A stretch of DNA of 31,796 bases from a virus. The first letter of the stretch is position 1. The number at the start of each line of letters is the position of its first letter. The DNA is taken from IMG/VR virus record IMGVR_UViG_3300037961_000677, positions 1 to 31,796 of that record, one strand, 5' to 3'. Both the position numbers and the translations under genes were made by a program. The notes under the pieces are model-generated. The model was not told the origin of the DNA. It did no database searches and worked only from the letters and a program-made list of their open reading frames with translations. Shown here one piece after another: positions 12,590 through 21,798 of the stretch.

Positions 12590-12590
12590 T

Positions 12591-12607
12591 CAAAAGGTGA
12601 CCTATAA
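12591..12607 (+). promoter_or_regulatory. Phage RNA polymerase promoter, copy 1
   Basis: AAAAGGTGACCTATA here is identical over 15 bases to the copy at 21829 and differs by one base from that at 30040. It resembles the SP6 phage promoter (AGGTGACACTATAG). By alignment the start site would be A12607, whereas the other two have G. It lies right after the last late gene and upstream of the presumed genome ends, the place of the T7 phi-OR promoter used in late transcription and replication. It would also transcribe the riboswitch and small peptide. Confidence 0.75.
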
Positions 12608-12621
12608 GAGAGACCCCCCTG

Positions 12622-12635
12622 TATACTATAGTATA
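12622..12635. repeat. Perfect 14-bp palindrome after promoter 1
   Basis: TATACTATAGTATA is a perfect palindrome, extending to 22 bases with two mismatches (12619-12640). It starts about 15 bases downstream of the promoter start site. It could be a protein-binding site or a DNA-unwinding element close to a replication origin; the sequence alone does not say. Confidence 0.5.
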
Positions 12636-12703
12636 TAGGTATCTTATTAGCCTGTTAAATATCCAGATTAGAAGCAGATGTATACATTATTCATACATTT
12701 AAC

Positions 12704-12752
12704 ATCGTTCATCCTATAATGGACGGAAGTAGGCATCAGCCGAAGGAACGCA
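12704..12752 (+). promoter_or_regulatory. Glutamine riboswitch (Downstream-peptide/glnA type)
   Basis: The core matches the known glutamine-binding aptamer: CGTTCATCC, then GGACGGAAGTAGG, then CCGAAGGAACGC. Three stems can be drawn: P1 CGTTC (12706-12710) with GAACG (12746-12750), P2 TCC (12712-12714) with GGA (12721-12723), and P3 GGC (12732-12734) with GCC (12739-12741). The conserved purine-rich junction ACGGAAGTA and CGAAG lies between the stems. The 'Downstream-peptide' version of this motif is known from marine picocyanobacteria and a cyanophage, and precedes short ORFs, as here. Glutamine binding would be expected to alter translation or transcription of the peptide 27 bases downstream. 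Confidence 0.85.
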
Positions 12753-12778
12753 TCTCAATTAACATTCGGAGGTGTAAT

Positions 12779-12883
12779 ATGACTAAACGTATATATCGTG
12801 GAATTGAAGTTAGTACAAAAAACAAACGTAAAAGATTAACTAAAAGTAAACCTAAGCGTGTCTATCGTGGGATAGCTGCTTAA
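12779..12883 (+). CDS. Riboswitch-controlled 34-residue YRG peptide
   Basis: A 34-residue, strongly basic peptide with GGAGGTG four bases before the ATG. It starts MTKRIYRGIEV and ends KPKRVYRGIAA, so the tripeptide YRG with a following hydrophobic residue occurs twice in near-symmetric positions. MTK-x-YRG peptides resemble the DUF4278 type found downstream of glutamine riboswitches in cyanobacteria and their phages. Function of such peptides is not established; the riboswitch suggests a role tied to nitrogen status (for example binding a host enzyme), which is inference. Confidence 0.75.
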   Translation: MTKRIYRGIEVSTKNKRKRLTKSKPKRVYRGIAA

Positions 12884-12913
12884 ACACACTTACATCTGCT
12901 TTTATATACCCCT

Positions 12914-12924
12914 AGGAGGTGATC
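12914..12924 (+). other. Orphan strong Shine-Dalgarno sequence
   Basis: AGGAGGTGATC is perfectly complementary over 11 bases to the 3' end of bacterial 16S rRNA (GATCACCTCCT), but no ATG, GTG or TTG follows within 20 bases and the frame-independent scan shows no ORF. It directly precedes the hairpin at 12926. Confidence 0.45.
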
Positions 12925-12925
12925 T

Positions 12926-12998
12926 AAGCCTTTCTAAGACACTTTAAGTATTCGTTATCTCTATCGCTACCTTAATATTTGAGTGTCTTAGAGGGCTT
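12926..12998 (+). repeat. Hairpin with 10-bp stem
   Basis: CTAAGACACT (12934-12943) is the exact reverse complement of AGTGTCTTAG (12982-12991). An outer pair AAGCC (12926-12930) with GGCTT (12994-12998) extends the stem. The 38-base loop is AT-rich. No T-run follows, so it is not a typical terminator. Confidence 0.6.
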
Positions 12999-13047
12999 CT
13001 TAGACGTATTTTGACAGAAAAATCTGAGGTGGTTATCGTATGTGCGG

Positions 13048-19180: not shown

Positions 19181-19352
19181 AATAGTCATACCTCAAAAAG
19201 CAATTGATGATTACAATAAAAGGTATGCAGATAAGATTGCTAAGTATAAGGCTAGTATTCCTTCTAACATACCTTACTATTTAGATGAAGATGCTATTTA
19301 TGAGCAGTACTTAAAAAATGTCAAAGCCTCGGAATGTCCGAGGAAGGAGTGA
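19173..19352 (+). CDS. 59-residue early protein
   Basis: ATG at 19173, overlapping the previous stop by eight bases; no strong ribosome site, suggesting coupled translation. Sequence is Lys/Tyr-rich (DDYNKRYADKIAKYKAS...PYYLDEDAIYEQYLKN). Its final residues ASECPRKE are encoded by palindrome copy 12 in the reverse orientation. It stops three bases before the RNA polymerase start. Function unknown. Confidence 0.58.
   Translation: MNKIVIPQKAIDDYNKRYADKIAKYKASIPSNIPYYLDEDAIYEQYLKNVKASECPRKE
19328..19342 (-). repeat. Early-region palindrome, copy 12 (reverse)
   Basis: CTCGGAATGTCCGAG, the reverse complement of the other 12. It overlaps the end of the preceding gene and is followed by AAGGAG, the ribosome site for the RNA polymerase N-terminal ORF. 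Confidence 0.95.
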
Positions 19353-19354
19353 AA

Positions 19355-20137
19355 ATGGCTACACTAGACGAACAGATTGAACTAGAACATAGAATGGTAC
19401 AATCTGGAATTGATAGATATATGAAACAAAAGAACACGCTTCAAGAAAAAAACTTAGAGTCTAAAACCAAGCATGGTAGATCAATCATAGCTGGTGTATG
19501 TGAGCCATTGACCAATGCGTTGGTCATTGCTTTGAAAAAACCTAGAGGTAACAACGATAGGGTTCACAAACTTATTAAAGATATAAACCCATCTTCTGCT
19601 AGTTTTCTTGCGTTGCTTTCTGTTATAGACAATGTGGCTTCACATTCAAGACTAGTCTCGGTTGCTCACTATGTTGGCAAGCAGTTAGAGACTCAAGATA
19701 GATTAGATAAGTGGATTAAGATTGACCCAGAAGTTGCAAGAAACTTAATTAAATTAGCTAATAAAAAATCTGATAAAGGTTTTGATCATAAAAGGCATGG
19801 GCTTAATCACAAAATGCACAGTGATGGTGTTGATATAACTGATTGGTCTAAAACAGATAGAATGAAAGTAGGTTTGTTTATGATTAATCTTATTATTGAA
19901 CATACAGGTATTGTAAAATTGAGGAAAAAATATGGTAGGAATAAAACCATAACATATCTTGACCCTACTCCTGATACTTTGGAGTGGATAAAAGCTTTTA
20001 ATAATACTCACATGAATAATTTACCTAGGTATTCTCCTTGTATTATTCAACCAAAAGAATGGAAATCATTTTATGGTGGTGGTTATTATTCTAAGCATAT
20101 AAACAGTAAACCATTTATGAGGATACATGGATTATGA
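19355..20137 (+). CDS. Phage RNA polymerase, N-terminal part (split gene)
   Basis: A 260-residue ORF from ATG 19355 with GAAGGAGTGAAA upstream. It aligns by eye with the N-terminal domain of T7 RNA polymerase: LALLSVIDNVASHSRLVSVAHYVGKQLETQ, IIEHTGIVKLRKK and the GGGYYSKHINSKPFMRIHG block match T7 ...GGGYWANGRRPLALVRTHS. In T7 this part recognises the promoter and the emerging RNA. The ORF stops right after RIHGL and the remainder of the enzyme is in the next ORF, which begins with an overlapping ATGA. Joining them would need one inserted base. Either the enzyme is truly split or there is a sequence error. Confidence 0.88.
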   Translation: MATLDEQIELEHRMVQSGIDRYMKQKNTLQEKNLESKTKHGRSIIAGVCEPLTNALVIALKKPRGNNDRVHKLIKDINPSSASFLALLSVIDNVASHSRLVSVAHYVGKQLETQDRLDKWIKIDPEVARNLIKLANKKSDKGFDHKRHGLNHKMHSDGVDITDWSKTDRMKVGLFMINLIIEHTGIVKLRKKYGRNKTITYLDPTPDTLEWIKAFNNTHMNNLPRYSPCIIQPKEWKSFYGGGYYSKHINSKPFMRIHGL

Positions 20138-21798
20138 GAAAAGATTTAAAACAATTTGTCGAGGATCACAACAATCGTGATAACTCCCTTGAGTATGAGT
20201 GTGTGAATACATTACAAAATACACCTTGGAGAGTGAACAAGTTTGTTTTGGAAACTATAAGAGCTTGTTGGGATAGTGGAGAACAGTGGGTTGGTTTACC
20301 TTCTCGTGATAATATACCACTTCCTAATTATCCTTTTAGCGTTGAGCCTAGACATTTAAACGATGAACAGAAAAAAGAGTTTAAAGACTTTAAGGCTTTA
20401 CGAAATACTATATACTCTGAGAATGCTAAGAATATGTCCAAGCGTATTCAAGTGGAGAGGACTTTACAGCTTGCAGAAGAATACGAAACTATGGACAACT
20501 TCTGGTTCGTGTGGCAATGCGACTTTCGTGGCAGGAAATATCCTGTTGAGTCGTTCCTCTCGCCACAGAATGCAGATTACTCTAAAGCATTATTGGAGTT
20601 TTCTCGTCCAGCTACCATTCTCAATGACGAAGATGCCAAGTGGTTAGCTATTCATGGTGCTAATGTGTTCGGAGTGGACAAGGTTAGCCTAGAAGATCGT
20701 GAGATGTGGGCTTATATAAATATAGAAAATGCTGTTAATGTTTATAATAATCCTTATGAATGTAAGTGGTGGCAGGAAGCCGACAAACCTTGGCAAGCAT
20801 TGGCATGGTGTAAAGAGTGGGCAGAATATAATGAGGTACGTCTGAGAGGCTTTGGAGAGCCGTATGAGACACATTTACCCTGTGCTAGTGATGGGAGCTG
20901 TAATGGATTACAACACCTCTCAGCAATGCTCAGGGACTCTGAGGGAGGTAAGGCAGTAAACCTCACCCCCAGCAACGAGCCAAGAGATATTTATGCTGAT
21001 GTAGCTAACAAAACAATATCTCTGTTAGAAAAAGAAAACACTACAATAGCTAAAGAATTATTAAAAATAGGTGTGTGTCGTAAGCTAACCAAAAGGTCAG
21101 TGATGATTGTCCCTTATAGTGGAACTAGACACGCTTGTAGAGAGTATATAATGGAAGCTTTAGAAGAAAAATGTAAGGGTAATAATCCTTGGAATGATGA
21201 TTTCTTTGAACCTTCTTTTTATCTTTCTGGTTTTGTATGGCAAGCTATAAGTGAGGTTATTGTGTCAGCTTTTAGTGCCATGAATTACATCAAGGAGATA
21301 GCTAAATTATATGTAGATAGTGGTAAGATATTTTCTTGGGTAACACCTACAAATTTACTTGTAAGGCAGGACTACAAAGAGAATAAAAAACGCAAGGTCA
21401 AGTCTCATATCAGTGGTTCGATAATACAACTGACTTATAATGAGGAGCAGGTCGATACAATTGATAGGAGAAAAGTATTATCTGGTGCTAGTCCAAATTT
21501 TGTACACTCACTAGATGCTTCGGCTTTGACATTTACTGTACATGAGTGTATAAAAGATGGTATAATAGACTTTGCAATGGTGCATGACTCTTATGCTACT
21601 CATAGCCCTAATATGCCTAAGTTAAACAAGAGGTTACGAGAGGCTTTTGTTAAGATGTATCAAGAGCATGATGTACTAGAAAATTTATTTACAAAAGCTG
21701 TTGCAGAACTGCCTGATGGCACTGATGTACCAAGACCTCCTGAGAAAGGAGACTTAGATTTAAACGATGTACTAAAGAGTGACTATTTCTTTGCCTGA
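20134..21798 (+). CDS. Phage RNA polymerase, catalytic part (split gene)
   Basis: A 554-residue ORF with all catalytic parts of the T7 enzyme. D253 in CASDGSCNGLQHLSAMLRD corresponds to T7 D537, K320 and Y328 in TKRSVMIVPYSG to K631 and Y639 (same spacing of 8), and D485 in MVHDSY to D812. The C-terminus (GDLDLNDVLKSDYFFA) has the terminal FxFA-like foot, ending in FFA (T7: FAFA). The segment between D253 and K320 is shorter than in T7. It starts with ATGA on the stop of the N-terminal ORF and has no strong independent ribosome site, so translation would depend on coupling. It transcribes from the three SP6-like promoters in this window. Confidence 0.95.
   Translation: MRKDLKQFVEDHNNRDNSLEYECVNTLQNTPWRVNKFVLETIRACWDSGEQWVGLPSRDNIPLPNYPFSVEPRHLNDEQKKEFKDFKALRNTIYSENAKNMSKRIQVERTLQLAEEYETMDNFWFVWQCDFRGRKYPVESFLSPQNADYSKALLEFSRPATILNDEDAKWLAIHGANVFGVDKVSLEDREMWAYINIENAVNVYNNPYECKWWQEADKPWQALAWCKEWAEYNEVRLRGFGEPYETHLPCASDGSCNGLQHLSAMLRDSEGGKAVNLTPSNEPRDIYADVANKTISLLEKENTTIAKELLKIGVCRKLTKRSVMIVPYSGTRHACREYIMEALEEKCKGNNPWNDDFFEPSFYLSGFVWQAISEVIVSAFSAMNYIKEIAKLYVDSGKIFSWVTPTNLLVRQDYKENKKRKVKSHISGSIIQLTYNEEQVDTIDRRKVLSGASPNFVHSLDASALTFTVHECIKDGIIDFAMVHDSYATHSPNMPKLNKRLREAFVKMYQEHDVLENLFTKAVAELPDGTDVPRPPEKGDLDLNDVLKSDYFFA

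Follow-up and report, generated by a model that had tools for sequence, protein, structure and literature searches.

Why should a T7-like phage carry a glutamine riboswitch directly in front of a reading frame for a peptide of 34 residues? The locus at 12704–12883 of the window (the whole stretch of DNA analysed here, 31,796 nucleotides of a 41,534-base virus record) raises this question. We consider it rather probable that the locus is a cyanobacterial-type glutamine-sensing unit in a T7-like marine phage, in which glutamine would free the ribosome site and the DUF4278-like peptide would act on host nitrogen assimilation. The genes of the record include a T7-like RNA polymerase, DNA polymerase A, primase/helicase, ribonucleotide reductase, terminase and head-tail adaptor. 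The preliminary description, in which the phage was called T7-like, is supported.

Aptamer, peptide and promoter

According to the Rfam search (cmscan) of the whole window, one strong match to RF01739 (Glutamine) is present at 12704–12754 on the plus strand. The score is 63.9 bits against the gathering score of 35 (E = 4e-12), the match is full length (model positions 1–53 of 53), and the virus record holds no further match to RF01739. Helix P1 is formed by 12706–12710 and 12746–12750, and helix P3 by 12732–12734 and 12739–12741, all on the plus strand. The aptamer of a close relative, L062, scores 60.9 bits. Compared with the window, the first pair of P2 is changed from U-A to A-U in L062, and the first pair of P3 from G-C to A-U. 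Both changes are compensatory, and covariance support is therefore present. The preliminary description had proposed a phage-borne glutamine riboswitch of a known class, belonging to the Downstream-peptide family, with an Infernal search of the Downstream-peptide and glnA families as the check. The riboswitch is borne out by the RF01739 score, and its type is glnA. RF01704 (Downstream-peptide, now Glutamine-II) gave no match at E ≤ 1 when the Rfam library was compared with the window, and this family was rejected for the aptamer. These results indicate that 12704–12754 is a type I glutamine riboswitch, for which glutamine binding is predicted.

The open reading frame runs on the plus strand from ATG at 12779, 24 bases 3′ of the end of the aptamer match, to TAA at 12881–12883, and encodes the 34-aa peptide MTKRIYRGIEVSTKNKRKRLTKSKPKRVYRGIAA. 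This small protein 3′ of a glutamine riboswitch has a repeated YRG, 13 Lys/Arg residues and one Asp/Glu residue. The Shine-Dalgarno sequence GGAGG is located at 12768–12772, within a segment (12768–12775, plus strand) that also holds the 3′ arm of a predicted sequestering hairpin. The basic peptide with YRG at both ends and a strong ribosome site, as first described, is thus found again. The sole Pfam match of the peptide is DUF4278 (PF14105), with E = 0.015 and 16.1 bits against a cut-off of 25.3; several of its phage and picocyanobacterial relatives pass this cut-off. In PHROG, the peptide matches 5049 and 545, neither of which has a known function. When phage and cyanobacterial peptides were aligned, 17 of 17 matched DUF4278 and PHROG 5049. 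Only three residues follow the second YRG, and the peptide does not have the C-terminal inactivating-factor domain of IF17 (gifB). AlphaFold gave a low-confidence model (pLDDT 68, pTM 0.21), in which two short strands flank the first YRG. A search of solved structures with the peptide found no relative, and BLAST searches of phage records with the module and with the peptide were uninformative. The peptide is not without known affinities: it probably groups with the DUF4278/YRG proteins, which are linked to glutamine riboswitches in cyanobacteria. On its sequence we assign it tentatively to these proteins, and its translation is predicted. As part of the favoured explanation, it would probably be a DUF4278/YRG protein in its smallest form, the counterpart of the 33-aa double-YRG peptides that picocyanobacteria encode 3′ of type II glutamine riboswitches. 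PirA (PII-interacting) was also taken by us to be a candidate family for the peptide. PirA is reported to be missing from marine picocyanobacteria, and it was dropped because no link to DUF4278 was found in the literature examined.

The core of the T7 promoter is CACTATAGGG. The sequence AAAAGGTGNCCTATA resembles it in form, and occurs in the record as three exact copies (12592, 21829 and 30040), all on the plus strand, against none expected from shuffles of the window. A promoter of the phage's own had been placed at 12591. The motif is real, and the core AAAAGGTGACCTATA of this T7-like promoter for the phage RNA polymerase occupies 12592–12606. From its position, it would drive the riboswitch-peptide unit. 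Another relative, L058, carries AAAAGGTGCACTATA at the counterpart positions of the promoters. A hairpin identified by pattern scan and folding (CCTGTATACTATAGTATATAGG, 12618–12639, plus strand) lies near the 5′ end of the predicted transcript. Downstream of the unit, a long hairpin (12911–13005, plus strand, fold z −2.8) forms a putative boundary element. The NtcA-box-like motif GTAN8TAC is present just upstream of the type II host copies, whereas none is found within 12590–12704 of the phage, and matches in the window are at the chance level. NtcA control of the unit was rejected.

Conservation and distribution of the unit

Relatives were collected from viral contigs using the terminase and the RNA polymerase as anchors. 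L062 (terminase 94% identical) is the one relative with the same riboswitch-peptide unit that the terminase search found. Its peptide is 82% identical to that of the window, with seven synonymous and five nonsynonymous codon differences, and with indels in-frame only. The codon differences between L003 and L009 are four synonymous and 12 nonsynonymous, and purifying selection is not shown by this pair. L058 (DNA about 77% identical) does not have the unit: the homology ends near 12657 and restarts near 12912. According to this comparison, therefore, the unit was gained or lost as a cassette, flanked by the conserved promoter region and the conserved hairpin 12911–13005. The hairpin is kept in relatives with the unit (L062) and without it (L058), and is possibly a processing or genome-end element. 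Most of the terminase relatives have no recognisable unit, in a comparison where only 38 of the loci extend at least 2.3 kb downstream and few aptamer mismatches were allowed.

A strict type I aptamer pattern was compared with 2.9 million viral contigs, and 18 loci were obtained. Together with the window and L062, 20 phage type I aptamers are available, and a YRG-repeat reading frame follows directly 3′ in 18 of them. When near-identical loci are grouped (our own grouping), this is the case in six of seven groups, against a background of about 1% of reading frames with at least two YRG. Among the groups are T4-like phages (tail sheath, SbcC-type nuclease) and one psbA-bearing contig (L004). 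As a host marker, psbA is found on that contig only, and is absent from G000. A different short reading frame (MDSFTLYQFK...), with no YRG, follows the type I glutamine aptamers of L015 and L019. In cyanobacterial genomes, type II aptamers are followed by a double-YRG reading frame, mostly of 33–34 aa, at all 20 inspected loci (e.g. MTLIYRGQKYVQNKEAAKKQHNELTYRGKAYTS), and the two such frames tested are both over the DUF4278 cut-off. The type I aptamer often precedes three-repeat DUF4278 proteins there. Among the genomes examined, the pairing of aptamer and YRG is confined to cyanobacteria, besides phages.

The unit could have been a single oddity. It is not, because several phage groups that are unrelated to each other carry an equivalent, and Prochlorococcus phage P-TIM68 is among them. 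This occurrence is new, as is the position of the unit next to a T7-like phage promoter that has no more than three exact copies, with presence in L062 and absence in L058. Judged by sequence, the phage has a conserved cassette whose kind is known from cyanobacteria; the variant form here combines a type I aptamer, a double-YRG mini-peptide and a phage promoter. Since the cassette is gained or lost among close relatives and is present in several phage lineages, the peptide is presumably useful during infection. A wider reading, which we put forward only tentatively and rate somewhat below even, is that unrelated phage lineages repeatedly acquired the glutamine riboswitch with a minimal DUF4278 peptide as a portable effector of nitrogen status. 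Here it would have been rewired to the phage's own polymerase, possibly in a non-cyanobacterial host.

Switching and role of the peptide

In the proposed mechanism, the phage RNA polymerase would transcribe the unit from the promoter at 12592. Without glutamine, GCAUCUC, located 3′ of P1, would pair with GAGGUGU at the Shine-Dalgarno site, and translation would be blocked. Glutamine binding would stabilize P1, this pairing would be broken, and the peptide would be made. The proposed anti-Shine-Dalgarno strand is GCATCTC at 12750–12756 (plus strand), and both the minimum free energy and the centroid folds pair it with GAGGTGT at 12769–12775. L062, L012 and L016 are predicted to form this helix as well, and it is altered yet paired in L014 and L004; in L003, L007, L009 and L010, the predicted fold hides the start codon instead. 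The fold energy of the region is unremarkable (z −0.93). When linkers were shuffled, 31% of the shuffles were as good, and the hairpin is not significant for the window alone. Thus, the direction of the switch is taken mainly from the published behaviour of the hosts: both type 1 and type 2 cyanobacterial glutamine riboswitches are reported to activate expression on glutamine binding (PMC6316151). We infer that glutamine switches the peptide on. The opposite direction, in which glutamine represses the peptide, agrees with the folding model in that the Shine-Dalgarno site remains hidden when only P1 is forced. When the next base 3′ of P1 is also held unpaired, however, the site is predicted to become more accessible, with a value of 0.56 instead of 0.22. 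Considering this rise and the activating behaviour of both host types, an off switch seems improbable.

The peptide would be made when nitrogen is plentiful, and would contact the nitrogen-assimilation machinery of the host by protein–protein interaction. The most likely target would be glutamine synthetase or its regulators, given that DUF4278 proteins take part in nitrogen control. DUF4278 is the N-terminus of IF17, where it is stabilizing but dispensable for inhibition of glutamine synthetase (PMC6316151), and this dispensability counts against fixing the target. Another role is that of a decoy: the YRG-only fragment would compete with host DUF4278 proteins and keep nitrogen assimilation running in infection, instead of copying the host brake. 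Many host DUF4278 proteins have an arginine-rich C-terminal segment like that of the glutamine-synthetase inactivating factors, and the phage peptides are without it. However, picocyanobacteria also encode YRG-only 33-aa peptides behind glutamine riboswitches, so that the YRG-only form is a normal host form, and we regard the decoy as unlikely, though less so than the off switch. The reading frame could also be an unimportant leader, with the riboswitch governing the stability or processing of the downstream transcript into the long hairpin near a presumed genome end. The conserved hairpin does lie directly 3′ of the unit, and the site, following the terminase gene and preceding the early genes, would resemble the end of the T7 genome. 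Against this, L062 has kept the peptide, with in-frame indels and fewer nonsynonymous than synonymous differences, YRG reading frames recur in unrelated phages, and L058 keeps the hairpin without the riboswitch. A mere leader is thus highly improbable.

The pair of a glutamine riboswitch and a small DUF4278 protein is known from cyanobacteria, where the stand-alone peptides have no known function. The compact phage cassette is a small natural system for finding the target of the peptide. With it, nitrogen-status sensing would be added to the ways in which a T7-like phage tunes its own gene expression. If the wider reading given above is true, infection would also bring along a glutamine-gated control over the nitrogen assimilation of the host.

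Host and comparison with known systems

The host phylum is putatively cyanobacterial. The core genes of the phage are nearest to those of Roseobacter and Pelagibacter (SAR11) phages, not cyanophages, and this counts against the main explanation. The closest relatives of the terminase, DNA polymerase and reductase are in Roseobacter-group phages, and that of the RNA polymerase is in a Rhizobium phage, with identities of 41–62%. A heterotrophic host of the Roseobacter, SAR11 or SAR86 type, with the unit repurposed outside cyanobacteria, would account for these four genes being closest to alphaproteobacterial phages. RF01739 is present in SAR86 as well, and a glutamine riboswitch has been published in the OM43 phage Melnitz and the Pelagibacter (SAR11) phage Mosig (PMC9004378). 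However, aptamer and YRG are paired only in cyanobacteria and phages among the genomes examined, and in SAR86 the aptamers stand before gltB or another small reading frame. In addition, RF01739 exceeds the cut-off in 39 of the 194 cyanobacteria sampled versus one of 398 Pseudomonadota, this one being the SAR86 genome used as the search centre. The heterotrophic host is accordingly the less likely reading, but it carries more weight than the decoy, with a cyanobacterial host as the other candidate. The T7-like RNA polymerase at 19334–21798 is encoded by two reading frames (267 and 554 aa) with an ATGA overlap. The polymerase is also split in L056, L057, L058 and L059, and is a single frame in HTVC168P and Pasto.

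Glutamine riboswitches have been published for T4-like cyanophages. In the literature examined, no phage glutamine riboswitch is tied to a DUF4278/YRG peptide; the primary gifB riboswitch paper lay outside that scope. Melnitz and Mosig resemble the window in having a glnA-type glutamine aptamer in a marine phage. In Melnitz, however, the aptamer is linked with a tmRNA gene, and a YRG peptide is not described. In the SAR86-type loci L025, L035, L045, L030 and L031, type I aptamers precede gltB-like genes, or stand in tandem before a 54-aa reading frame (MTISKL...). P-TIM68, a cultured isolate, is like the window in that glutamine aptamers precede a double-YRG reading frame, AIR93631.1, which is over the DUF4278 cut-off and is annotated as a hypothetical protein; the riboswitches are unannotated. 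Unlike the window phage, P-TIM68 is T4-like, and its tandem aptamers are degenerate (RF01704-like, 28.8 bits; RF01739, 35.4 bits). They adjoin each other at 1000–1095 of L206, one type II-like and one type I-like.

In cyanobacteria, glutamine riboswitches are linked mainly to DUF4278 genes (PMC6316151). The type I riboswitches in front of gifB/IF17 or other DUF4278 genes have the aptamer family and the YRG-repeat N-terminal domain in common with the phage. The cyanobacterial DUF4278 proteins mostly have three YRG and often a C-terminal segment like an inactivating factor, whereas the phage peptide has two YRG and no such segment. The yfr6/Downstream-peptide units (RF01704) of Prochlorococcus and marine Synechococcus are like the window in their arrangement, a glutamine aptamer and then a reading frame of some 33 aa carrying YRG at either end. 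The phage differs from these hosts in its type I aptamer, the far more basic middle segment of its peptide and its phage-polymerase promoter.
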